A stretch of DNA of 9,791 nucleotides, from NCBI GenBank assembly GCA_002084985.1, contig MZGO01000014.1, positions 1 to 9,791 on the forward strand, read 5' to 3'. Both the position numbers and the translations under genes were made by a program. The notes beneath the pieces were generated by a model. The model made no database searches, was not told the DNA's origin, and was given only the letters and a program-made list of their open reading frames with translations. The first letter of the stretch is position 1. Each line of letters starts with the position of its first letter. Of this stretch, positions 1-9,791 are shown piece by piece. This DNA is from Thermotoga sp. 4484_232 (GTDB taxonomy: Bacteria > Thermotogota > Thermotogae > Thermotogales > Thermotogaceae).

Positions 1-1
1 G

Positions 2-79
2 TTTGGTTTCAAACCTTATCCATTTTTCGAGCTACCGGAGGAGGAAAAAGAGGCTCCAAAGGTGGATCTGTCATTCTGA
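2..79 (+). CDS. lemA: LemA family protein, C-terminal end (partial, 5' end outside window)
   Basis: Only the last 25 codons and the TGA stop are visible. The readable end begins FGFKPYPFFELPEEE and finishes APKVDLSF. A (F)GFKPxxFFE motif followed by an acidic stretch and a terminal APKVDF-like end is the usual C-terminus of LemA proteins, which are membrane-anchored helical-bundle proteins of unknown molecular role. The other two forward frames have no comparable protein-like end. No hairpin terminator is visible after the stop, and the trpB2 promoter begins about 9 nt downstream, so some readthrough into the trpB2 leader is possible and would still be controlled by the attenuator. The family call rests on a short C-terminal motif only. 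Confidence 0.72.
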   Translation, partial: FGFKPYPFFELPEEEKEAPKVDLSF

Positions 80-87
80 GATTTTAT

Positions 88-115
88 TTGGAAAAAAGTC
101 TGGATGTGATAAAAT
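88..115 (+). promoter_or_regulatory. Probable sigma-A promoter of the trpB2 leader transcript
   Basis: The -35 candidate is TTGGAA at 88-93 and the -10 candidate is TAAAAT at 110-115, with a 16-nt spacer. TGA directly before the -10 gives an extended -10 (TGN) element. The predicted transcript start is near 121-123. This places the leader peptide's Shine-Dalgarno site (131-137) and the whole attenuator inside the transcript. The assignment is by consensus match only. Confidence 0.6.
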
Positions 116-142
116 TTATGAAACACGTTCGAGGTGAAACAC

Positions 143-223
143 ATGTGTGGAATTTCTCTTAAGGGATCAAAAGTGTTCTTCAGAAGTGAATGGTGGTGGC
201 GGTACCCCGATTCGGTGGGGTAA
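143..223 (+). CDS. trpL: trp leader peptide, 26 codons with Trp-Trp-Trp
   Basis: This is a short ORF with an ATG start, a strong Shine-Dalgarno site GAGGTGA at 131-137 (5-nt spacing) and a TAA stop. It ends SEWWWRYPDSVG, with TGG TGG TGG at 191-199. Three consecutive Trp codons in a 26-residue peptide, just before overlapping RNA helices and a Rho-independent terminator, are the signature of a ribosome-mediated transcription attenuator. The peptide itself is expected to have no function beyond sensing charged tRNA-Trp. A ribosome stalled at 191-199 would leave 205-215 mostly free, so the antiterminator can form. A ribosome that reaches the stop at 221-223 would cover 205-215, so the terminator forms. 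The first part (MCGISLKGSKVFF) shows no recognisable feature. Confidence 0.88.
   Translation: MCGISLKGSKVFFRSEWWWRYPDSVG
203..222 (+). promoter_or_regulatory. Protector (1:2-type) hairpin of the trp attenuator
   Basis: TACCCC at 203-208 pairs with GGGGTA at 217-222, with an 8-nt loop. The hairpin sequesters most of the antiterminator's 5' arm (205-215) and overlaps the leader stop codon. It is the counterpart of the 1:2 helix in classical trp leaders and would favour termination when the leader is not being translated. Confidence 0.6.
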
Positions 224-258
224 TCGTCACTGTTTTGTTGTATTACGCCGAATCGGGG
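205..258 (+). promoter_or_regulatory. Antiterminator helix of the trpB2 attenuator
   Basis: CCCCGATTCGG at 205-215 is perfectly complementary to CCGAATCGGGG at 248-258 (11 bp). An inner helix, GTAAT 220-224 with ATTAC 242-246, extends the stem beyond an internal loop. The 3' arm uses 255-258 (GGGG), the first four bases of the terminator's 5' arm, so the two structures are mutually exclusive. Its 5' arm starts 5 nt after the third Trp codon, the geometry needed for stalling at Trp codons to permit antitermination. Confidence 0.85.
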
Positions 259-293
259 CTCTCCTTAAAAGTGGAGAGCCCCTTTATTTTTAT
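255..293 (+). terminator. Regulated intrinsic terminator of the trpB2 leader
   Basis: GGGGCTCTCC at 255-264 pairs perfectly with GGAGAGCCCC at 273-282 (10 bp, loop TTAAAAGT), followed by the T-rich run TTTATTTTTAT. It lies between the leader peptide and the trpB2 ribosome-binding site, so termination here prevents trpB2 transcription. It competes with the antiterminator for 255-258. Confidence 0.9.
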
Positions 294-309
294 AAGGAGG
301 TGGTTTTTT

Positions 310-1578
310 ATGAGAATCAGGGTTAATCTATCAGTAGAGGACATGCCAAAGAGCTGGTACAACGTTGTAGCCGATCTTCCTTTTAATCTCGATCCACCAT
401 TGGATCCAGGAACCAGAGAACCTCTGAACCCAGAAAAGCTCTCTCCTATATTTCCTCAATCCCTCATAGAGCAGGAAATATCTGACGAGAGATTCATCGA
501 AATTCCCGAAGAAGTAATCAGAGAATACGCAGTCTACAGACCGACTCCGCTCATAAGAGCAATGTATCTTGAGGAGTATTTGGGAACACCTGCAAGGATC
601 TACTACAAATACGAAGGAGTCAGCCCAACAGGGAGTCATAAAACGAACACATCGATACCGCAGGCTTATTACAACGCTAGAGAAGGGGTGAAACGGCTGG
701 TGACGGAAACAGGAGCGGGACAGTGGGGAAGCGCTTTAACCTATGCTGGAAGAAAATTTGGATTGGAAGTGGGAGTCTTCATGGTTAAAGTGAGTTACTT
801 TCAGAAACCCATGAGGAAAAACCTGATGCAACTGTACGGTGGAAATGTTACACCCAGTCCAAGCGAGAAGACAAAATTTGGGAAGAGACTACTCAAGGAG
901 AATCCAGAAAATCCTGGAAGCCTTGGTATAGCGATAAGTGAAGCAATGGAGGCTGCTCTGGAAGATTCAAAAACCAAGTATTCCCTTGGAAGTGTCCTGA
1001 ACCATGTTCTTCTTCATCAGACTGTCATAGGCCTTGAGTTGAAGAAACAACTCGAAATGATCGGCGAAAGGCCAACGATCATAATGGGATGTCATGGAGG
1101 AGGTTCTAACTTTGGGGGAACGATCCTTCCCTTCATACCGGATAAGCTGGAAGGAAAGGATATAAGGTTCGTGGCCTGCGAGCCAACTGCATGCCCGTCT
1201 CTTACCAAGGGGAGGTACGATTACGATCATGGAGACACAGCTGGTATAACGCCTCTTCTGAAGATGTACACACTGGGAAAGGATTTCATACCACCCAAGA
1301 TACATGCGGGAGGTTTGAGATACCATGGCTCTGCTCCCATAATAGCTAGACTGGTTCATGAAGGAATAGTGGAGGCTCAGGCATTCGATCAAGATGAGAT
1401 ATTTAAATGGGCGAAGGTTTTCTCAAACATTGAAGGGATAGTCCCGGCTCCAGAGAGTGCACACGCTATTGCAGGTGTGGTTAAGGAAGCTTTGAGGGCA
1501 AAAGAGGAGAAAAGGGAGGAAGTCATCGTCTTCAATCTGAGTGGACATGGCCTTTTCGATCTCACTGCTTACACTTGA
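310..1578 (+). CDS. trpB2: Tryptophan synthase beta chain, TrpB2 type (long form)
   Basis: 422 residues; a PLP enzyme that condenses L-serine (or O-phosphoserine in some TrpB2 enzymes) with indole to give tryptophan. The ATG at 310 is chosen because AAGGAGGTG at 294-302 precedes it and the protein then starts MRIRVNLSVEDMPKSWYN, typical of TrpB2. The frame is open back to 190 but that stretch is the attenuator. The PLP-binding lysine is K111 in EGVSPTGSHKTNTS. The catalytic glutamate is E133 in ETGAGQWG, the phosphate-binding loop is HGGGSN (262-267), and EGIVPAPESAHA (375-386) and SGHG (411-414) complete the active site. The long N-terminus and HKTN rather than HKIN mark the TrpB2 subgroup, which typically does not form the TrpA complex. 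No trpA or other trp gene is adjacent. It is preceded by its own Trp attenuator and ends at a bidirectional terminator. Length and sequence match the T. maritima TrpB2 as I recall it. Confidence 0.95.
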   Translation: MRIRVNLSVEDMPKSWYNVVADLPFNLDPPLDPGTREPLNPEKLSPIFPQSLIEQEISDERFIEIPEEVIREYAVYRPTPLIRAMYLEEYLGTPARIYYKYEGVSPTGSHKTNTSIPQAYYNAREGVKRLVTETGAGQWGSALTYAGRKFGLEVGVFMVKVSYFQKPMRKNLMQLYGGNVTPSPSEKTKFGKRLLKENPENPGSLGIAISEAMEAALEDSKTKYSLGSVLNHVLLHQTVIGLELKKQLEMIGERPTIIMGCHGGGSNFGGTILPFIPDKLEGKDIRFVACEPTACPSLTKGRYDYDHGDTAGITPLLKMYTLGKDFIPPKIHAGGLRYHGSAPIIARLVHEGIVEAQAFDQDEIFKWAKVFSNIEGIVPAPESAHAIAGVVKEALRAKEEKREEVIVFNLSGHGLFDLTAYT

Positions 1579-1607
1579 AAAGAGCCCGCGATAATAGCGG
1601 GCTCTTT
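1579..1607. terminator. Bidirectional terminator between trpB2 and the FGGY kinase gene
   Basis: AAAGAGCCCGC at 1579-1589 pairs with GCGGGCTCTTT at 1597-1607 (11 bp, 7-nt loop). It starts on the base after the trpB2 stop and its last base is the final base of the kinase stop codon on the other strand, so it fills the whole gap between the convergent genes. The A/T ends of the stem provide a short T tract in either direction (TTT on +, TTTT on -). Confidence 0.85.
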
Positions 1608-3055
1608 CATTGAAGATCTATCAACTCTTTCTTCAATTCCTTGTATCTCTGGTACTTCTCTTCGTAGTAATCTAAATTTCTATCGGGATACACGATCTTG
1701 GATATTCTGTGCCCTCTTTCGAAGGCATCACGATGATCTTTATAGAGGCCCGCGGAAAGTCCTGCAAGAAGTGCCGCTCCCAGAGTCGTGGCCTCCGATG
1801 TTTGAAGAAGATGTATGGGAATACCGAGTACGTTCGATCTTATTTTAACTACGAGTTCACTGAGGGATTCTCCTCCAACCATGATCAGTTTGTAATCCTT
1901 TTCAAGGCCTAAATTTCTCAGATTCTCTATCATGGATCTCACTTCGAACGAGAGACTCTCTATTATAGAGATCAACATTTCATCGGAATCCGTCTCATCC
2001 GATAGATTCAGAAAGCTGGCTCCTGCTCTCATATTGGAGAAAATTCCCCTCAGGAATGGGAAGAAATAAACCGTGTTCGTTTTCATCTTCACGTTTTCAA
2101 GATGCTCGAAATCCTTTCTCAGAACTTTCCTCAGGAACCATTCAATACAGTATCCTCCCGTTGGTAAACCATCGACAAGGTAATAACGATGCGGGACAAC
2201 GTGAAAACCTGCGTTGAAGTCATATATGATGTTTTTCAGAAAGATGTTCAGTACATCATCATCTACTCCCCACAGTACGGCTTCCGTTGTACCAGTTGAA
2301 TTCAGCACTTTATCAAGGTCGAAAACGCCCGCTGGAAAAGAAGCCGTCATATGATCCTGACCAGCTGTCGTTACGATCACATCCCTTGGAAGGCCAAGGT
2401 CGAGAGCAATATCGGATTTCACAGTTCCTCTTGGTATTCCACTGTCCGCTATGCCTGGGAGGTGTTTTTTTGGAATGTTCGCTATATCCAGAATTTCCTC
2501 ACACCAATCCCCTGTTTTTAGATCGATCAGCATGGTTCTGGAAGCTAAGCATCTGTCCATCCTTTTGTCACCTGTTAGGATGTATGCGATGTAGCTTGAA
2601 ACGTCGAGCCATGTTTCAATCCCTTCCATTTCCTCTTTGAAAGAGTGATAATAATACATCATCTTGAAGATTGAAAAGATCCAAGACGCTCTGAGCCCTG
2701 TTCTTCCGAATATCCATTCTGGATCGACACGGGAGAAGAACTCCTCGTATGTTTCCCTGGTTATTGTGTTGTACCAGATCAATCCTGCCATACTGGATCC
2801 ATCTTTCCTCACCGGGAAAACCGTCTCTCCCAAAGATGAAATACCGATTGCTCTGATTTTCTTTTTCACATCATCCGGTATACTGTAAAGGAGTTTTGAA
2901 ACAGTTTTCCAAAGTTTTTCAGGATGGAGGATCTCCTTCAAACTCTCGTGAAATTCGAGCGGTGTTCTGGCTCTGGTCCCCCATATGGGTTTTCCTTCTT
3001 CGTCGTACACCCAGAGTTTTATATTCGTTGTGCCTATATCCAATCCCACAAGCAT
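1607..3055 (-). CDS. FGGY-family carbohydrate kinase, substrate unknown
   Basis: 482 residues, the usual length for the FGGY sugar kinase family (xylulokinase, gluconokinase, glycerol kinase), which phosphorylates sugars or polyols with ATP. The N-terminal actin-like domain starts GLDIGTTNIKLWVYD (4-18), holding the phosphate-1 loop. IWYNTITRE (93-101) occupies the place of the substrate-loop motif. The probable catalytic base is D234 in AGQDHMTASFPAGV, followed by STGTTE (253-258). The C-terminal nucleotide-binding domain has VGGES (393-397) and the family-typical TTLGAALLAG. The end, with Tyr-rich helices after YPD, is also standard. The ATG is preceded by AAAGGGTGG, and the gene begins 12 nt after the nagA stop, so the two are co-transcribed. 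I cannot assign the substrate. The GQDH motif and the YNTIT loop differ from the xylulokinase and glycerol kinase versions I know. The nagA neighbour suggests an amino-sugar-related substrate, but that is inference. Confidence 0.85.
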   Translation of the reverse strand: MLVGLDIGTTNIKLWVYDEEGKPIWGTRARTPLEFHESLKEILHPEKLWKTVSKLLYSIPDDVKKKIRAIGISSLGETVFPVRKDGSSMAGLIWYNTITRETYEEFFSRVDPEWIFGRTGLRASWIFSIFKMMYYYHSFKEEMEGIETWLDVSSYIAYILTGDKRMDRCLASRTMLIDLKTGDWCEEILDIANIPKKHLPGIADSGIPRGTVKSDIALDLGLPRDVIVTTAGQDHMTASFPAGVFDLDKVLNSTGTTEAVLWGVDDDVLNIFLKNIIYDFNAGFHVVPHRYYLVDGLPTGGYCIEWFLRKVLRKDFEHLENVKMKTNTVYFFPFLRGIFSNMRAGASFLNLSDETDSDEMLISIIESLSFEVRSMIENLRNLGLEKDYKLIMVGGESLSELVVKIRSNVLGIPIHLLQTSEATTLGAALLAGLSAGLYKDHRDAFERGHRISKIVYPDRNLDYYEEKYQRYKELKKELIDLQ

Positions 3056-3067
3056 CCAACCACCCTT

Positions 3068-4183
3068 TCAAGATATTTTTCCATAAACCACCTCTCCTTT
3101 TTTCACAGTGGCGATCAGGTTGAGATCCCTATCTAAAATCACCAGATCCGCTATATAACCTTCTTTTATCCTTCCCAAATCCTCTATGGAAAGATTCGAT
3201 ATAGCGTTGTAAGATGAAACGTGCGTCAATTCCTTCAAGGATGCTCTTGTGAATTTTCGGAAGTTTCTAACGGCATTTATGAAAGTGAGAGTACTTCCTG
3301 CAAGGCTACCGTTTGAAAGCCTCGCTACACCGTTTTCCACGAATACCTTCAATCCTCCCAGCTCGTAAACGCCATCTTTCAAACCCGCTGCGGATATCGC
3401 ATCGGTTATGAGAATTATTCTACTTGCACCTTTTGTTTTATATATAAGTTCCACCATCTGGGGAGAAAGATGAACACCGTCACAGATGAGCTCAAGGACG
3501 ATATCATCAAAGTAGAGTCCAGCTCCAGTTATTCCGATTTCCCTGTGATGCAAAGGTCTCAAAGCATTTGGAAAATGTGTGATTCTCTTGACTCCCATAT
3601 CGTGCGCTTTTTTCACATGTTCAAATTTCGCATTCGAATGTCCCATGGATATTACAACACCCTTGTTCATAAGCGCTTTAGAATACTTGCTGAACCCTTC
3701 TATCTCCGGTGCCATCGTTATCAGTCTCAACACATCCTTTTCTGAGATGGCGTTTATCTCTTTCTCGCTTGGTTTCCTTACGTATTCAGGATTCTGTGCT
3801 CCCACTTTCTCAGGCGATATGTAGGGACCTTCAAGATGAATTCCCAAAACCGATGTTACATCCCTTCCATTCATGTATTCTTCAACGACATCTAAAGCTT
3901 TTAGCATATCCTCCAAAGAGCACGAAACTGTTGTTGGAAGAAATGAGGTTACACCCTGTGCGTAGAAGAACTCTTCCATCTTTTCAAGGGATTTTTTGGA
4001 AAGATCCATTGTATCCACTCCGAAACTTCCGTGAACATGGGGGTCAAAGAATCCAGGAATCACTATGAAAGACCAGGATCTTTTCTTTTTGGATACCTTT
4101 GATATCTTTCCATCTTCTATCTCCAGTGAACCTGTGAATTCCCCTTCCAGAGGATCGACCATAAGAATATTGTCCAGAATCAA
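3068..4183 (-). CDS. nagA: N-acetylglucosamine-6-phosphate deacetylase
   Basis: 371 residues, cytoplasmic, metal-dependent amidohydrolase fold; removes acetate from N-acetylglucosamine 6-phosphate to give glucosamine 6-phosphate. Visible motifs, numbered from the TTG start: FDPHVHG (H49, H51), metal ligand E118 in HLEGPY, H182 in MGHS, H203 in THFPNA, CDGVH (D235, H238) for substrate contact, and catalytic D261 in ITDAISAAGL. LHHREIGITGAG is also typical of NagA. I choose TTG at 4183-4181 because the Shine-Dalgarno site AGGAGG (revcomp of 4193-4198) then has 8-nt spacing and the protein starts MILDNILMVDP, aligning with the recalled T. maritima start MIVEKVLIVDP. An in-frame GTG at 4192 lies against the Shine-Dalgarno site and is unlikely. 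It is first in an operon with the downstream FGGY kinase. No nagB is visible. Deacetylation of another N-acetyl sugar phosphate cannot be excluded. Confidence 0.92.
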   Translation of the reverse strand: MILDNILMVDPLEGEFTGSLEIEDGKISKVSKKKRSWSFIVIPGFFDPHVHGSFGVDTMDLSKKSLEKMEEFFYAQGVTSFLPTTVSCSLEDMLKALDVVEEYMNGRDVTSVLGIHLEGPYISPEKVGAQNPEYVRKPSEKEINAISEKDVLRLITMAPEIEGFSKYSKALMNKGVVISMGHSNAKFEHVKKAHDMGVKRITHFPNALRPLHHREIGITGAGLYFDDIVLELICDGVHLSPQMVELIYKTKGASRIILITDAISAAGLKDGVYELGGLKVFVENGVARLSNGSLAGSTLTFINAVRNFRKFTRASLKELTHVSSYNAISNLSIEDLGRIKEGYIADLVILDRDLNLIATVKKGEVVYGKIS

Positions 4184-4229
4184 CCTTATCACCTCCTGTG
4201 TTTGCTGTTAAAATTTTAAAACGGGAGGG
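4184..4229. promoter_or_regulatory. Compact divergent promoter region, nagA (-) / LemA-like gene (+)
   Basis: Only 46 bp separates the chosen nagA start from the LemA-like start, and it holds the nagA Shine-Dalgarno site. For the + strand, TTATCA (4186-4191) and TAAAAT (4209-4214) form a -35/-10 pair with 17-nt spacing and a start near 4221. TAAAATTTTA at 4209-4218 is a perfect palindrome, so the same 10 bp also offers TAAAAT as a -10 on the - strand. No good -35 is visible for that direction. If both are used, the two polymerases would compete for the same DNA. Confidence 0.45.
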
Positions 4230-4727
4230 ATGATTCTGATTTGGATCTTCGTTCTCTCATCCGTAACGACATCTATTTTCCTATGGATCTCCATACCTTA
4301 TCTTATAATGAATTACCTGAGAAAGAAGAAGGAGATCTTCAGGGAAAAGATAGAGGAGAACATTGAGAAGAAGATGGAGGTCATCAGGGAGTTCTGCGAT
4401 CTTGTGGATGAAGGTCCAAGAGAAGAGATGCAAAATATGCTGGATGACTTCAAGTTCGCTCTCTCTCAGGCCGATAGATCGGATATGGAAAAAAAGATCG
4501 TGAGGAGATTTTTTGAGATACTGGACAATTTGCGAAATCTTGATGAATGGAGAAGTAGAGTTAAACTCTGGGAACTGGAAGATGAAATGAAAAGGTTGAA
4601 CGATGAAATGAAGGAGTTGAGGAAATTCCACAACGATGTTGTGGAGAGTCACAACAGAAAATGCAGGAAACTGATCTTTCTGCCTGCGGTGAAGATGTTC
4701 AACATCAAACCCATGGATACTTTGTGA
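4230..4727 (+). CDS. LemA-like membrane-anchored coiled-coil protein, divergent
   Basis: 165 residues. An N-terminal hydrophobic segment (about 2-29) is followed by the basic cluster RKKK (31-34), so one membrane anchor is likely. The rest is almost entirely charged helix with coiled-coil character (about 35-60 and 105-145). The C-terminus, FHNDVVESHNRKC then LIFLPAVKMFNIKP, resembles the LemA ending (YNDAVxxYN, then FP, then FGFKP), and length and topology also fit a short LemA relative. It lacks the acidic tail after the GFKP-like motif, ending at PMDTL. The molecular function of LemA proteins is unknown. The start is uncertain: GGGAGG at 4223-4228 is only 1 nt from the ATG at 4230, so initiation at the in-frame CTG at 4236 (7-nt spacing) is possible. 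queA begins 14 nt after the stop, so they form one transcription unit. The family link is a motif-level inference. Confidence 0.6.
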   Translation: MILIWIFVLSSVTTSIFLWISIPYLIMNYLRKKKEIFREKIEENIEKKMEVIREFCDLVDEGPREEMQNMLDDFKFALSQADRSDMEKKIVRRFFEILDNLRNLDEWRSRVKLWELEDEMKRLNDEMKELRKFHNDVVESHNRKCRKLIFLPAVKMFNIKPMDTL

Positions 4728-4741
4728 AAGGAGGTTCTTGG

Positions 4742-5749
4742 GTGACTGAGGTTTCGGAATTCGATTACTACCTTCCCAAAGAGCTGATCGCTCAAGAGCC
4801 GGTGGAGCCGAGAGACTCATCTCGTCTGATGGTTATACACAGGAAAACTGGAGAAATCGAGCACAGAATATTCAGGGACATCGTTAACTATCTCGAAGAA
4901 GGGGATCTTCTCGTTCTGAATACAACTAAAGTTATACCGGCAAGACTCTTGGGAAAAAAAGAGACAGGAGCAAAGGTTGAGATCTTTCTGCTTGAAAAAA
5001 TGAAAGAAGGCGTTTGGAAATGCCTCGTAAAGCCTGGATCTAAAGTGAAAATTGGAGCGAAAGTATTGATAGGAGATCTGATAGCAAGATGTTTAGAAAG
5101 ATTTCCCGATGGGGCAAGACTCATGGAATTTGAGCCAGGGGATGACTCCGTCATATTCTCCCATGGGAAGACCCCTTTACCTCCTTACATAAAAAAGGAT
5201 GTTCCTTCCGATAGATACCAAACTGTTTATGCCAAAGAGGAAGGAGCGGTCGCTGCTCCAACAGCTGGGCTTCATTTCACAGAGGAACTTTTAAAAAAAT
5301 TGGAAAATAATGGTGTTAAATTTGCAGAGGTTATCCTTCATGTGAGCCTTGGCACTTTCAGACCGGTTAAGGCAGAAAGAGTGGAGGATCATAAAATGGA
5401 GGAAGAGTATTACAAAGTGCCAGAAGCAACTGTCAAAGCGATCGAAGAAACTTTAAAAAGAGGAAGAAGAATAGTAGCAGTTGGAACGACTGTCGTCAGA
5501 ACTTTGGAAACCATAGTGAGACTTCCCAAAAGAAAAGAGTACGAAGGTAAGACGGATCTTTTCATATACCCTCCATTCGAGTTCAAACTCGTCTCTGCCC
5601 TGATAACGAACTTTCATCTTCCAAAATCAACTCTTCTGATGCTTGTCAGTGCATTTGCGGGGAAAGACCTCATAATGAAAGCTTACAAAATAGCGATTGA
5701 GAAAAGATACAGATTCTTTTCCTTTGGGGACGCTTGTTTGATACTATGA
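4742..5749 (+). CDS. queA: S-adenosylmethionine:tRNA ribosyltransferase-isomerase
   Basis: 335 residues; transfers and isomerises the ribosyl moiety of S-adenosylmethionine onto 7-aminomethyl-7-deazaguanine at the tRNA wobble position, giving epoxyqueuosine in queuosine synthesis. Conserved blocks are all present: IAQEPVEPRDSSRLMV (17-32), VLNTTKVIPARL (58-69), LPPYI (146-150), DRYQTVYA (157-164), GAVAAPTAGLHFT (168-180), HVSLGTFRPV (200-209), GTTVVRTLE (248-256), ITNFHLPKSTLLMLVSAF and the terminal FSFGDACLI. The GTG at 4742 is chosen because AAAGGAGG (4727-4734) lies 7 nt upstream. The frame is open back to 4661 but that overlaps the preceding gene and has no ribosome-binding site. The length equals that recalled for the T. 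maritima protein. It is second in the operon after the LemA-like gene and ends 62 nt before a bidirectional terminator. No other queuosine gene is in the window. Confidence 0.96.
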   Translation: MTEVSEFDYYLPKELIAQEPVEPRDSSRLMVIHRKTGEIEHRIFRDIVNYLEEGDLLVLNTTKVIPARLLGKKETGAKVEIFLLEKMKEGVWKCLVKPGSKVKIGAKVLIGDLIARCLERFPDGARLMEFEPGDDSVIFSHGKTPLPPYIKKDVPSDRYQTVYAKEEGAVAAPTAGLHFTEELLKKLENNGVKFAEVILHVSLGTFRPVKAERVEDHKMEEEYYKVPEATVKAIEETLKRGRRIVAVGTTVVRTLETIVRLPKRKEYEGKTDLFIYPPFEFKLVSALITNFHLPKSTLLMLVSAFAGKDLIMKAYKIAIEKRYRFFSFGDACLIL

Positions 5750-5810
5750 AACCATCTGTTTTTTCTCTATGCTAGCTGGTAGAAGAGGTCTATGAATAAC
5801 GATAAATTCA

Positions 5811-5840
5811 AAAAAATGCCCACCAGAGGTGGGCATTTTT
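5811..5840. terminator. Bidirectional terminator between queA and the repeat-protein gene
   Basis: AAAAATGCCCACC at 5812-5824 pairs with GGTGGGCATTTTT at 5828-5840 (13 bp including the A/T ends, loop AGA). A GC core flanked by A and T runs makes it functional in both directions, fitting the convergence of queA (+) and the repeat-protein gene (-, stop at 5856-5858). The rest of the gap, 5750-5810, shows no gene or other signal. Confidence 0.9.
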
Positions 5841-5855
5841 AGAAGAATTACATGA

Positions 5856-8435
5856 TCACCATTCGATCTTGAAATCCGAGAAAGTGACCTTCACAGAATT
5901 CAAAAACCAAGCTTTTGCTATCAAACCAACTTTCGTGAACTCGTGTGGATTTGTCACGATCTTTCCAAGGAATTCCCAATCCTCGGATCCAGGTTCTCTG
6001 TAGAAGAACGAGTATTCATTCTCTACAGCTTTTATCTTCAACCAGCCTGTCTTGTAAGGATAATTCCTTATGAAATCGCCTTCCGTATCTGGTATCAGGA
6101 TCATGAAAGGTGCCCATCCGCCGCATATTCTTGAGTAGCTTCCCTCTATGGCTATATTGTTCTGATCCTTTGGCCCAAAGTAAACAGCGTAAACCTTTCC
6201 CGATTCTTTTCCATTCCAAAGAACCAAACCAACATGAGTATTGAGGACCCTCTTTGGCATCTCAAAATGAACGCTCACTTCCCATCTGTCTTTATCCGGG
6301 ATATCAACCACAAGCATTGGAGCTTTTCTTCTCTCGCAGTTCCAGATATCGGATCCAGGGACCGCATAGATCGTTATCTTATTCCCCTCGATCCTGTACC
6401 AGTTGTTTGGCTCTGGAGAACTCCATTTCCAATTGTAAGTTACAGTCTTCTTGACCGGACGAGGCTTTGGAAGAACGGCTACTCCTTCCTTTTTGTATCC
6501 TATCCATTTCAGAAATCCTGGATGCTCGTACGTGTCCAGATATATGTTCATGGGTATCTTTATCCTGAGCGTGCTTTCATAGACTTTTTCATCGTTCACG
6601 TAGAATACAGCGGAACCATCGCTGTTCCACACTATCTTGAATGTACCATCCACATACCCATTGTAGTCCAGATTGGTAACTTCTTTCACTTCGCTTTTAC
6701 CCTCTTCTCCGTAGACGTACACGTATATCTTCCTCTCTGTTGGATCTGTGATGAAGCCTATGAAGAATCCTTTTTCTGTGGACATCAGTCCCATATTTTG
6801 ATATTCCTTCTCACTTGTAGGCCATCTTGCGTTCCATATCACCGTTATAGGTGGTGTGAACTCCTCATTGGATACGATGGCATCGAAATCTTTCCCCTCA
6901 GAGATGGTATTTCCATCGCCATCGGTATCGTTTGGATCGTCTCCTATATCATCTCCAACGACTATTCCCACAGCTTCGAAGCTAACCGTTCCTATAGGTA
7001 TCCAGTTGTTTTCTGCTGTGATATCTGTAAATCCTTTGGGAAGTTCTGTGACAGGTTTTGGTTTTATAGGTTTCAAGGGTTTCGGGCGTGGTAGAGCTTG
7101 AGCTTTCGGACCGTAGATGTGAAGCTTGTACGCACCATAACCGCTTGATCTGTTGATCTCGATGTAATACGTTCCTGGTTTTAGGGTTACCTTATCGCTT
7201 GTTTTTGCCTCTTTCCCAACGTAAATGGATTTGTAATAGCTGCTAGCTCTCGAATCATACAGGTAACAGTAACTCAATGATAGATCATCCAAGGGTTCCA
7301 CCCTGAAGCTCACTTCTCCTTCTGCTCCGATCTCGAATTTCCACCAATCCTTTTCATCGGTTTCGTATCCATCCGTGTATCCGAGGTGTCCATATACCGT
7401 TTCGTTCACAGGAGCGATCGAAGCGTTCACCGGCTCATCGTTAGGCTCAGGATCGTTACCATACGGATTTTCCTCAAAGTCGATCGTGAGGTAGTATCCT
7501 CCGTATCCATTGCTTCTGTTGACTTCTATCAAGTACTCTCCCGCCTTCAAACCAACAGGACCAAATTTTTCACCTTTTTGCCCGATGTACCAGCTGCTTA
7601 TGTAAGAATCTCCACCTTTTCTGTAAAGGTATACGTAGGATAGAGAAAGTGTCTCATCCATATCGAATTGGATCCAGAATTTTCCGTCCTTTTTCACGCT
7701 GAACTTCCACCAATCTTTTCCATCGGTTTCATATCCATCTGTGTATCCAAGGTGCCCTTCGTTAGTACCAATCACAGCTTTTGTGGCTTTTGCAAAATCT
7801 TCATTGGGTTCTGTATCGTTACTCATCTTTTGTGGTTTGTAAATTATGTTCAATTTGTATCCTCCATACCCACTACCCCTGTTGATTTCTATCAAGTACT
7901 CTCCTGCCTTCAAACCAACAGGACCAAATTCCTTATCCTTCTGCTCAACGTACCAACTGCTTATGTAGGAATCTCCATCCTTTCTGTAGAGGTATACGTA
8001 CGACATGGAAAGCGTCTTGTCCATCTCGAATTGGATGGAAACTTCTCCGTCCTCGTCGATTTTGAATCTCCACCAATCTTTTTCATCTGTTTCATATCCA
8101 TCCGTGTATCCAAGGTGCCCTTCGTTGTATCCGATTTTTCCTATAATGGCTTTTTCAACGGAATCGTTGTTTTCTTTTTCACCAGAAAAGCTCGGGTAAA
8201 CCACGGTGGGACGTATCGAAAAGCTTCCAGAACCACTGCTCCTGTTCACTTCTAACCAGTAAGTGCCTCTTTTCAATCCAACAGGTCCTAGGTCTTTTCC
8301 CTGTCCAACGTATACGGACGATATGTAAGAGGTTTTGTCGGATCTGTAGAGGTACACGTAACCTAAAGAAAGCCGCATCCTGTGATAAATCGTATCTGAG
8401 CCATACTTTGTCCTTCTGGGAATCCAGATATCCAC
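5856..8435 (-). CDS. PPC-repeat protein with two C-terminal ConA-like domains, 3' part of a disrupted gene
   Basis: 859 codons from a GTG at 8435-8433. It holds four PPC-like beta-sandwich repeats of about 121 residues. The first is incomplete (about 22-95); the others start at GHLGY 106, 227 and 349, each with TDGYETDxKDWWxF, a YVYLYR strand, GPVGLKAGEYLIE and GYGGY. Then follow a Pro/Lys linker (449-463), a beta-rich concanavalin-A/laminin-G-like domain (about 475-648) with the Asp-rich loop DPNDTDGDGN, a second linker (656-663), and a second ConA/DUF1349-like domain (about 665-859). No catalytic domain or own signal peptide is visible. The first 21 residues (DIWIPRRTK...) look out of frame: the -1 frame there reads GYLDSQKDKVWLRYDLSQDA, the true start of the first repeat. 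The GTG has AGGAGG 5 nt upstream, so translation could still begin there, giving a protein without an export signal. The role may be surface glycan binding, which is inference. Confidence 0.75.
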   Translation of the reverse strand: MDIWIPRRTKYGSDTIYHRMRLSLGYVYLYRSDKTSYISSVYVGQGKDLGPVGLKRGTYWLEVNRSSGSGSFSIRPTVVYPSFSGEKENNDSVEKAIIGKIGYNEGHLGYTDGYETDEKDWWRFKIDEDGEVSIQFEMDKTLSMSYVYLYRKDGDSYISSWYVEQKDKEFGPVGLKAGEYLIEINRGSGYGGYKLNIIYKPQKMSNDTEPNEDFAKATKAVIGTNEGHLGYTDGYETDGKDWWKFSVKKDGKFWIQFDMDETLSLSYVYLYRKGGDSYISSWYIGQKGEKFGPVGLKAGEYLIEVNRSNGYGGYYLTIDFEENPYGNDPEPNDEPVNASIAPVNETVYGHLGYTDGYETDEKDWWKFEIGAEGEVSFRVEPLDDLSLSYCYLYDSRASSYYKSIYVGKEAKTSDKVTLKPGTYYIEINRSSGYGAYKLHIYGPKAQALPRPKPLKPIKPKPVTELPKGFTDITAENNWIPIGTVSFEAVGIVVGDDIGDDPNDTDGDGNTISEGKDFDAIVSNEEFTPPITVIWNARWPTSEKEYQNMGLMSTEKGFFIGFITDPTERKIYVYVYGEEGKSEVKEVTNLDYNGYVDGTFKIVWNSDGSAVFYVNDEKVYESTLRIKIPMNIYLDTYEHPGFLKWIGYKKEGVAVLPKPRPVKKTVTYNWKWSSPEPNNWYRIEGNKITIYAVPGSDIWNCERRKAPMLVVDIPDKDRWEVSVHFEMPKRVLNTHVGLVLWNGKESGKVYAVYFGPKDQNNIAIEGSYSRICGGWAPFMILIPDTEGDFIRNYPYKTGWLKIKAVENEYSFFYREPGSEDWEFLGKIVTNPHEFTKVGLIAKAWFLNSVKVTFSDFKIEW
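7110..8433 (-). repeat. PPC repeat block B (repeats 5-8), paralogous to block A
   Basis: Repeat 5 starts at GYLDSQKDKVWL (8433, one frame off) and carries the EKENNDSVE linker found otherwise only after repeat 1. Repeats 6 and 7 (8120, 7757) are the near-identical middle pair. Repeat 8 (7391) has the SYYKSIYVGKEAK form found otherwise only in repeat 4. The same internal order as block A shows duplication of a four-unit cassette. Confidence 0.75.
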
Positions 8436-8446
8436 TCAGTCCTCCT
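8433..8446 (-). promoter_or_regulatory. Shine-Dalgarno plus GTG start at the frame break
   Basis: On the - strand, AGGAGG (8446-8441), a 5-nt spacer and GTG (8435-8433). The spacer contains the TGA stop of the out-of-frame remnant, giving TGAGTG. The site lies between the broken halves and could restart translation of the 859-codon 3' part. It may equally be chance, since the AGGAGG falls in coding sequence. Confidence 0.4.
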
Positions 8447-8580
8447 GAAGCTCGTATCCTCCGTATCCACCATCTCTTGTAACCTTCACAAGATAGGTTC
8501 CAGGTTCTAATTCTTTGACCTCACTTTCTTTCTCTTTATCTCCAACGTACATGGAGTAGTAATAGCTGCCTAACAACGAA
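8436..8580 (-). pseudogene. Out-of-frame remnant of the fourth PPC repeat
   Basis: From 8579 the frame shifted by one base reads SLLGSYYYSMYVGDKEKE, then ELEPGTYLVKVTRDGGYGGYELQED and TGA at 8438-8436. It matches the second half of the last repeat of the downstream block (SYYKSIYVGKEAK..., LKPGTYYIEINRSSGYGAYKLHIYG). The frame is open up to 8750, but above 8580 it is only the shadow of the main frame, and no start or ribosome-binding site precedes the remnant. It is best read as part of the disrupted large gene rather than as a separate gene. Confidence 0.7.
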
Positions 8581-9791
8581 ACTGACCTTGCCTTTGGATG
8601 ATATCTGGAATCTCCACCAATCGGTGTTATCAGTTTTATATCCGTTTGTGTATCCCAGATGTCCTTCAAGCCATGTGTTGACGTACCCCTGAGACGCTTT
8701 AGAAGAATTGTCGTTGGGTTCACTATCGTTTTCGTAAGAATCCGCTTCAAATATCGGTTTCATCCTGTATCCACCGTAGCCACTATCCTTTGTGACCTTT
8801 ATCAGGTATTCCCCAGCCATGAGGCCAACGGGTCCCAGCTTTTTCAAATCGCTTCCAACGAATTGACTGGTTATATAGTAATCTCCTTCTTTCCTGTACA
8901 AATAAACCCAGCCAATAGCCAAGTTTTTATCGGATGAGAACTGAAGATAAAATTCCCCATCTTCATCCAATTTCATCTTCCACCAGTCGACATTATCCGT
9001 CTTGTAACCATCTGTGTATCCAAGATGCCCATCGTTCCATTCATTAACGGTGCACAATTTAGCATCCTTCACTTCCTCGTTCGGTTCGTTGTCGTTACCT
9101 ATTTCTTGCTCTTCATGGACTATGTTTAACTGATATCCACCGTAGCCACTATCCTTTGTGACCTTTATCAGGTATTCCCCAGCCATGAGACCGACAGGTC
9201 CCAGTTTTTTCAAATCACTTCCAACGAATTGACTGGCTATATAGTAATCCCCATCTCTTCTGTACAAATAAACCCAACCGATCGCCAGGGTACTATCTGC
9301 AGAAAATTGCAGATAAACTTTTCCATCCTTTTCTAATGAGAATTTCCACCAATCAACATTATCGGTTTCATATCCGTCTGTGTATCCAAGATGCCCCTCG
9401 TTCGAACCAACGTATCCAAGGGTGGGAGTTTCCAGGCTGTCGTTTTTCTCGCGATCGTTCCTGTAAGAAGTTGGATTAACTATAGGATCTATCTTGACGC
9501 TACCAGAGCCGCTGTCTCTGCTTACCTTTAACCAATAGGTTCCCTTTCTCAACCCAAAAGGCCCAAAATCTTTGCCTCGTCCGACATACACTGAGCTTAT
9601 GTAGGAACTCTTATCCGATCTGTAGAGATAAACCCAGCCTATGTTTAAGCTTCCCGACGCGCTTATCCTGAAAGTGACCTCTGCATCCTGTGATAGAGAG
9701 AATTTAAGCCATTTTGATGTGTTGTTCTCATCAAGCTGAGCGTAAATGGAAGGGAAGTAGACGATGGGAATAAGGATCAACGCAAAAATAA
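8536..9791 (-). CDS. Exported PPC-repeat protein, N-terminal part (start outside window, frame broken at 3' end)
   Basis: It runs in from the right edge. The first visible residues, IFALILIPIVYFPSIYA-QL, are the hydrophobic core and cleavage region of a signal peptide, so the true start lies just outside the window; the TTG at 9780 would leave too short an export signal. The mature part has an N-terminal repeat beginning QLDENNTSKWLKFSLSQDAE, then PPC-like repeats starting at GHLGY at 9396, 9030 and 8664 (exactly 366-nt periodicity). Each has TDGYxTDNxDWWxx, GWVYLYR, GPVGLMAGEYLIKVTKDSGYGGY and an acidic NDxEPN linker. The frame ends with RQLLLLHVRWR at a TAA (8536-8538), unlike any repeat. 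The proper continuation, SYYYSMYVGDKEKE...GYGGYELQ, is in the next frame at 8579-8445. The last repeat is therefore broken by a frame-changing deletion. If translated, it would give a secreted fragment of about 410 residues. Confidence 0.7.
   Translation of the reverse strand, partial: IFALILIPIVYFPSIYAQLDENNTSKWLKFSLSQDAEVTFRISASGSLNIGWVYLYRSDKSSYISSVYVGRGKDFGPFGLRKGTYWLKVSRDSGSGSVKIDPIVNPTSYRNDREKNDSLETPTLGYVGSNEGHLGYTDGYETDNVDWWKFSLEKDGKVYLQFSADSTLAIGWVYLYRRDGDYYIASQFVGSDLKKLGPVGLMAGEYLIKVTKDSGYGGYQLNIVHEEQEIGNDNEPNEEVKDAKLCTVNEWNDGHLGYTDGYKTDNVDWWKMKLDEDGEFYLQFSSDKNLAIGWVYLYRKEGDYYITSQFVGSDLKKLGPVGLMAGEYLIKVTKDSGYGGYRMKPIFEADSYENDSEPNDNSSKASQGYVNTWLEGHLGYTNGYKTDNTDWWRFQISSKGKVSFVVRQLLLLHVRWR
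8768..8823. repeat. 56-bp direct repeat, copy 1
   Basis: Identical base for base to 9134-9189, exactly 366 bp (one repeat unit) away. It encodes MAGEYLIKVTKDSGYGGY in repeat 3. Identity continues with few mismatches to about 8885. Identity at third codon positions suggests recent duplication or gene conversion. Confidence 0.9.
9134..9189. repeat. 56-bp direct repeat, copy 2
   Basis: Second copy of the 8768-8823 sequence, lying in repeat 2 of the same gene at the same phase of the repeat unit. Confidence 0.9.

Follow-up and report, generated by a model that had tools for sequence, protein, structure and literature searches.

A candidate tryptophan attenuator in front of a stand-alone trpB2 gene and its distribution in Thermotogota

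How the expression of a stand-alone trpB2 gene is adjusted to the tryptophan supply is the question raised by a contig of Thermotoga sp. 4484_232 (assembly GCA_002084985.1, contig MZGO01000014.1), of which positions 1 to 9,791 of the forward strand were analyzed and are here called the window. A preliminary description had proposed that trpB2 is preceded by a classical attenuator with a tryptophan (Trp) codon-containing leader peptide. Our analysis supports this proposal by Trp-codon leaders in most of the related genomes and by covariation of the antiterminator, and it makes very likely that the region is a ribosome-mediated transcription attenuator of the classical type, which would sense the charging of tRNA-Trp.

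The gene itself (plus strand, 310-1578, annotated by hmmscan) encodes a TrpB-like pyridoxal phosphate enzyme of 422 amino acids. The protein reaches 694.1 bits with TIGR01415, above the cut-off of 518.85, and is also above the cut-off of NF009057, while its score of 149.6 with TIGR00263 (trpB) is far below the cut-off of 392.45. By these profile scores it is a TrpB2 (TIGR01415) and not the TrpB1 that acts as partner of TrpA. The nearest protein cluster shares 92% identity with it.

Anatomy of the trpB2 leader and the proposed switch

The elements of the leader were found where the preliminary description had placed them, all on the plus strand. The Shine-Dalgarno motif GAGGTG (131-136) precedes a leader open reading frame (ORF) of 26 codons, MCGISLKGSKVFFRSEWWWRYPDSVG, which ends with its stop codon at 223 (143-223) and contains TGG TGG TGG at 191-199 as presumed stall site; relatives carry comparable Trp-codon leaders with a start codon and Shine-Dalgarno motif in the Trp frame. 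The 5' strand of the antiterminator (segment 2, 205-217) pairs over 13 bp with its 3' strand (segment 3, 246-258), whereby the core of 205-215 with 248-258 consists of 11 perfect bp and one G-U pair extends the helix; both strands are supported by covariation. Bases 255-258 are common to segment 3 and the intrinsic terminator hairpin (255-282), which was found by scan and fold, has 10 perfect bp between the arms 255-264 and 273-282, and is followed by the U-tract TTTATTTTT (283-291) and the Shine-Dalgarno motif of trpB2, AAGGAGGT (294-301). One element had to be revised. The protector (1:2) hairpin is present, but its earlier extent of 203-222 was too small, because the predicted fold gives 15 bp with one bulge at 195-231, including part of the second and the whole of the third Trp codon. 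The putative promoter (TTGGAA at 88-93, a 16-nt spacer and TAAAAT at 110-115 with an extended TG) was found by the motif scan, but 14 such motifs occur in the window compared to 16.2 expected, so the match alone is not significant. Of 56 leader loci, 40 have a TATAAT-like box with at least five of six matches 5' of the leader, a count taken without background control.

The region as a whole is unusually structured. Folding of 122-310 gave -63.6 kcal/mol compared to a shuffle mean of -49.1 (z -3.32), and none of 200 shuffles was as good. When the 260 nt upstream of trpB2 in the window were shuffled by a first-order Markov model, 17 of 5000 sequences contained a short ORF with three adjacent Trp residues (WWW). 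The leader terminator is the first of 15 terminator-like sites listed for the window, where 8.3 are expected. A tryptophan gene preceded by a leader terminator would also fit to a T-box or another known Trp riboswitch. However, no Rfam family was matched anywhere in the window at gathering score, and the six weak matches obtained for 60-330 at E ≤ 10 include neither T-box nor Trp_leader, which makes a control by such an element almost certainly wrong. The best of these weak matches, the alphaproteobacterial small RNA ar45 at 166-308 (E 0.024, 20.1 bits compared to a gathering score of 40), was taken as chance.

The attenuator would operate as follows. When charged tRNA-Trp is ample, the ribosome would pass the Trp codons at 191-199 and reach the stop codon at 221-223, where it would cover 205-217, or after its release the protector would capture segment 2. 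With segment 2 occupied in one or the other way, the terminator would form and the transcript would end near 285-291. Uncharged tRNA-Trp, in contrast, would make the ribosome stall at the Trp codons; the protector would stay open, and the free 205-217 would pair with 246-258, thereby removing 255-258 from the foot of the terminator stem. The terminator would thus be blocked and the RNA polymerase would continue into trpB2. From this arrangement we infer ribosome stalling and an induction of trpB2 under tryptophan starvation.

Conservation of the leader and its helices

The evidence that carries this interpretation comes from relatives. Among 103 Thermotogota genomes searched at a threshold of E ≤ 1e-100, trpB2 is present in 74, and its upstream DNA was read in 71 of them; G006 and G010 with a short contig upstream and G094 with a split trpB2 were omitted. 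A Trp-codon leader precedes trpB2 in 62 of these 71 genomes, the window not being counted. It contains WWW in a short ORF near the gene in 60 cases, WWWW further out in one (L131) and WYWW in another (L151). G032 was left out of this count, since its leader precedes a trpB2 with a masked stretch that fell below the threshold (L224). With the window included, the WWW short ORF was found in 59 of 70 trpB2 upstream regions, compared to 11 of 4910 sequence windows elsewhere in the same loci (0.22%). Moreover, 56 of 60 loci have a start codon and a Shine-Dalgarno motif (match of at least 4) in the Trp frame, compared to two and none for the other two frames, which suggests that the leader ORF is translated. 

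These numbers also bear on the view that the terminator is constitutive or controlled otherwise, and that the Trp-rich ORF is there by coincidence or merely enhances translation through coupling. The terminator of the trpB2 leader is indeed strong by itself, but the high frequency of Trp leaders at trpB2 loci compared to sequences elsewhere, the in-frame translation signals and the covarying antiterminator make such an explanation highly improbable.

The covariation was analyzed on alignment A1, which comprises 19 leaders from the clades nearest to the window, aligned without regard to structure. For the antiterminator, 92.7% of the cells are paired compared to 31-53% when slid by 1-3 columns, and two-sided changes occur in 10 of 13 pairs, a number reached by none of 500 shuffles. 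In a strand-swap analysis of 60 loci, the native segments 2 and 3 pair with a mean of -24.6 kcal/mol compared to -13.8 with strands from other loci; this set includes the window and six loci from outside Thermotogota and omits the loci of G002-G005 as well as L137, L146 and L041 (no terminator called by the script). In L007, L009, L010, L025, L075 and L151 the native strands are little or no better than foreign ones, and segment 2 appears to be located elsewhere or is not clearly placed there. Finally, dinucleotide shuffling gave p < 0.01 for the antiterminator in 56 of 59 Thermotogota WWW loci. This set covers 59 of 60 such loci including the window and G002-G005, all with a terminator called by the script, whereas L146 was omitted though its terminator is readable. 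The antiterminator overlaps the terminator arm by at least three bases in all 59 loci.

The spacing agrees with the preliminary description, according to which a stall at the Trp codons leaves segment 2 free. In the contiguous antiterminator of the window, segment 2 begins 14 nt past the first base of the first Trp codon, and the median over the loci is 12 nt (10th-90th percentile 9.8-14, with a search minimum of 9), which would suit the leading edge of a ribosome halted at these codons. The helices used in the shuffle test allow internal loops, hence start and overlap for the window are 9 and 9 there, compared to 14 and 4 for the contiguous helix. In 34 of 59 loci, half or more of segment 2 would be covered once the ribosome has arrived at the stop codon.

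A Trp-containing leader in front of a gene of indole or Trp metabolism, with Pro residues following the Trp run in many leaders, could also be a TnaC-like arrest peptide, i.e. the nascent leader would sense free tryptophan and the ribosome would stall when tryptophan is in excess. TnaC-type arrest peptides depend on a fixed arrest motif and on Rho-dependent termination. The leader peptides are variable outside a run of three to four adjacent Trp codons, which favors codon-dependent stalling. In L115, L118, L123 and their kin the Pro codons belong to the protector strand opposite the Trp codons, hence the peptide sequence seems to be shaped by RNA pairing. Furthermore, the target is a biosynthetic TrpB-like enzyme and not a Trp-degrading tryptophanase operon, and the leader contains an intrinsic terminator together with a covarying antiterminator. 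An arrest peptide is therefore quite improbable.

Several observations weigh against a classical attenuator. The contiguous antiterminator and the terminator of the window have only the four bases 255-258 in common, and the RNA that lies free when a ribosome stalls at the first Trp codon is predicted to fold at equilibrium into a 9-bp shortened antiterminator beside the complete terminator. Hence, antitermination would have to be kinetic: the antiterminator would form before the 3' arm of the terminator exists and would then hold the four G-C pairs at the stem foot beside the U-tract. On A1 the terminator and the protector covary weakly, and their counts were not used as support, because A1 shifts the terminator arm by one base between clades. 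Foreign strands pair as well as the native ones in 40% of the cases for L114, 22% for L112, 21% for L126 and 18% for L113, and the shuffle test did not reach p < 0.01 for L117, L126 and L128. In 25 of 59 loci, less than half of segment 2 would lie under a ribosome that has reached the stop codon, which indicates that the off-step differs between families. Many of these 25 loci, among them L005 from Marinitoga, have longer leader tails, and in several of them the Trp codons themselves pair within the protector, so that formation of the 1:2 hairpin probably brings about the off-state. Lastly, the leader is absent from the Thermotoga clade including T. maritima, whose TrpB2 proteins are the nearest to that of the window in the genomes examined.

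The latter point touches the loss of the TGG run in close relatives, which the preliminary description had named as evidence against its proposal. Such a loss is indeed seen in nine genomes, namely in G071, G073 and seven members of the Thermotoga clade (G001, G093 and G095-G099); none of the nine has a TGG run within 330 nt upstream of trpB2. By TrpB2 identity of 99.5-100%, the leaderless loci include T. maritima MSB8 (L092), T. petrophila (L091) and Thermotoga sp. SG1 and KOL6 (L095 and L096); named TrpB2 matches with a leader are P. hypogea (L103), P. thermarum (L104), P. elfii (L105), T. caldifontis (L097), T. profunda (L109) and K. olearia (L101). A tree built from 78 TrpB2 rows places the window on a separate branch within a set that contains Thermotoga and Pseudothermotoga, and the leader state requires four changes, including one in the outgroup row L245. 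This tree was made by a quick method, no starred set in it contains the window, and the rows L119 and L154, whose upstream regions were unread, were scored as leader-bearing. The pattern reads as a few losses from a leader-bearing ancestor. In G094, which also belongs to the Thermotoga clade, trpB2 is interrupted (L299); its two pieces are about 1.3 kb apart, and the sequence between them resembles, by eye, a TnpB-type transposon protein.

Of the changes that had been predicted for relatives, conserved Trp codon runs and compensatory exchanges in the antiterminator were thus observed, but corresponding exchanges in the terminator and protector were scarce. Collectively, the trpB2 leader is an attenuator by every sequence-based test except the covariation of these two hairpins.

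TrpB2 in its genomic context and related leaders on other genes

Directly 3' of the trpB2 stop codon, a perfect 11-bp hairpin (1579-1607, plus strand) was read from the sequence between convergent genes; it is not among the sites listed by the terminator scan of the window. Its position suggests that trpB2 is probably transcribed alone. Farther downstream, the minus strand at 5856-9789 encodes a long repeat-rich protein with a PPC-domain match, which is split over several frames near 8430-8760; judged from its sequence, this gene is frameshifted or mis-sequenced.

The role of TrpB2 in vivo has been debated. A high affinity for indole is cited (PMC11917138), whereas a role as serine deaminase has been proposed and poor activity was found (PMC1854888). 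Among the 103 Thermotogota genomes, trpA was found in 32, trpB1 in 34 and a trpE-like gene in 34. Within the 62 leader-bearing genomes, 53 have no trpA match and none of these 53 has a trpB1 match, while two of them (G044 and G045) carry a trpE-like gene. All seven leaderless genomes of the Thermotoga clade possess trpA; G071 and G073 have none. Genome completeness was not given, which makes single gene absences unsafe, the pattern over 53 genomes less so. Since TrpB2 is the only tryptophan synthase beta chain found in these 53 genomes, the switch most likely turns on the synthesis of tryptophan from indole. Hence, in leader-bearing genomes without trpA, TrpB2 probably makes tryptophan from indole, and the gene content fits better to this function than to a role mainly as serine deaminase. 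The source genome of the window presumably resembles its relatives in the content of Trp genes.

Leaders of this kind are not restricted to trpB2. A covariance model built from 19 trpB2 leaders only was run on the 103 genomes, matches were examined up to about E 0.05, and 25 further places were read. A leader with WWWHL precedes trpE in L170, L174-L176, L179, L180, L182, L184 and L185, i.e. in 9 of 30 trpE loci examined (34 genomes with a match), in L182 at a distance of several hundred nt. Leaders with CWWH (L218) and WWWLW (L225) and TTG start codons were also found before trpE, and WWW precedes trpD in L220-L223, with trpD being confirmed for L220 and assigned by likeness for the others. 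In L226-L228 a Trp leader stands before a stand-alone trpB1, the same arrangement as for trpB2 elsewhere, and no trpA was found in these three genomes. Three leaders precede genes for TrpX-like transporters, with WWWHL (L229), YFYFWYWKDT (L231) and YAYWWF (L235); the proteins score below the TrpX cut-off, and L230 and L232 resemble these loci by sequence only.

Genes for 3-deoxy-D-arabino-heptulosonate 7-phosphate (DAHP) synthase are preceded by leaders with FFYAYWF (L234, gene at 1754-2764) and YAYHYYYYH (L236, gene at 502-1521), and by a leader read by eye as YNYGYY in L301, where the gene was assigned by likeness to L236. These leaders, rich in Phe, Tyr and Trp or in Tyr and accompanied by terminators, are likely aromatic attenuators. 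L217 has a WWW leader, AWWWHRSLFFEG, and a terminator before a gene at 505-1361 for a protein with TIGR04076 and ferredoxin matches, which may be part of Trp or indole metabolism. Genes resembling those for homocysteine synthesis (HcyBio) and having terminator-bearing leaders were seen in L219 (match at 1629) and L303 (near 2388, minus strand), the family being confirmed for L219 only. The short ORFs in their leaders start, by eye, with MIMC and MMMC, and a Met/Cys attenuator is possible there. In the Thermotoga clade no such leader was found at trpE (L163-L169 and L171), and no match of the covariance model below E 0.75 is among the matches listed. Three candidates were discarded: L300 and L302 have no Trp leader worth keeping before the next ORF, and L304 is the trpE leader of L170 read on the opposite strand.

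Leaders beyond Thermotogota and the meaning of the switch

A scan of contigs gave at least 80 trpB2 loci, five of them from Thermotogota, and a WWW leader in 6 of 75 loci from other phyla (L007, L009, L010, L025, L041 and L075). In four of these six genomes trpA is present, hence TrpB2 is not the sole tryptophan synthase there. In Calditrichota, trpB2 was found in 32 of 40 genomes and the leader in 4 of 30 loci read (L237, L238, L241 and L243), of which L237 and L238 come from the genomes of L007 and L010; L239, L244 and L262 offer too little upstream DNA. Between L241 and L243 the antiterminator changes from GGCAGTGGGT paired with ACCCGCTGCC to GGCGACGGGT paired with ACCCGTTGCC, which by eye includes one fully compensated pair. 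In Ignavibacteria, the class of G108 with L041, trpB2 occurs in 43 of 149 sampled genomes, and among 30 loci read eight have a WWW and one a WRWW leader; one locus has only 99 nt upstream, L267 and L041 come from the same genome, and L268 is 99% identical.

The trpL-type mechanism is already known. The leader of the window shares with E. coli trpL the tandem Trp codons, the mutually exclusive 1:2, 2:3 and 3:4 hairpins and the intrinsic terminator, but differs by three adjacent Trp codons, the missing match to the Rfam family Trp_leader, a single trpB2 as target and only four bases common to antiterminator and terminator. Actinobacterial trp attenuators likewise combine a Trp-codon leader peptide with a terminator, and the candidate in C. 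diphtheriae precedes a trpB2A operon (PMC1262725); there, trpB2 and trpA are named as members of one operon, and membership of this trpB2 in TIGR01415 is not evident from the passages on it, whereas the target in Thermotogota is a stand-alone TIGR01415 gene. A leader-peptide attenuation of an aromatic gene outside the usual phyla has also been proposed for uORFC-13-1 before aroF in Acholeplasma, which differs by its Phe codon, gene and phylum, in a search that covered Thermotogae genomes (PMC8632094). Leader genes have been treated in general in another study, which counts Thermotogae among the groups with too few genomes (PMC4833913). In agreement with the preliminary description, we found no description of a Trp attenuator for Thermotogota in the open-access papers searched, most subscription journals being outside our search. 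As far as this literature goes, phylum, target and regulon are new.

We lean towards the view that leader-peptide attenuation is an old, phylum-wide control of aromatic amino acid genes in Thermotogota, with Trp leaders on trpB2, the trp operon, trpB1 and TrpX-like uptake, Tyr or Phe/Tyr/Trp leaders on DAHP synthase and perhaps a Met/Cys leader on the homocysteine gene, and that it was lost in the Thermotoga clade. Its use on trpB2 would extend to Calditrichota and Ignavibacteria and may date back roughly to the origin of bacterial TrpB2, an enzyme that it would mark as a tryptophan synthase that uses indole and is induced by tryptophan starvation. A gamma-proteobacterial origin has been suggested for attenuator motifs (PMC3766115); a Trp attenuator kept across Thermotogota, together with similar leaders elsewhere, would argue against such an origin for attenuation in general. 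T. maritima, a source of TrpB2 in the studies on its role, would be an exception with regard to regulation. Furthermore, a Trp-codon switch on trpB2 in genomes without trpA makes the role of TrpB2 in the synthesis of tryptophan from indole directly testable in culturable species.

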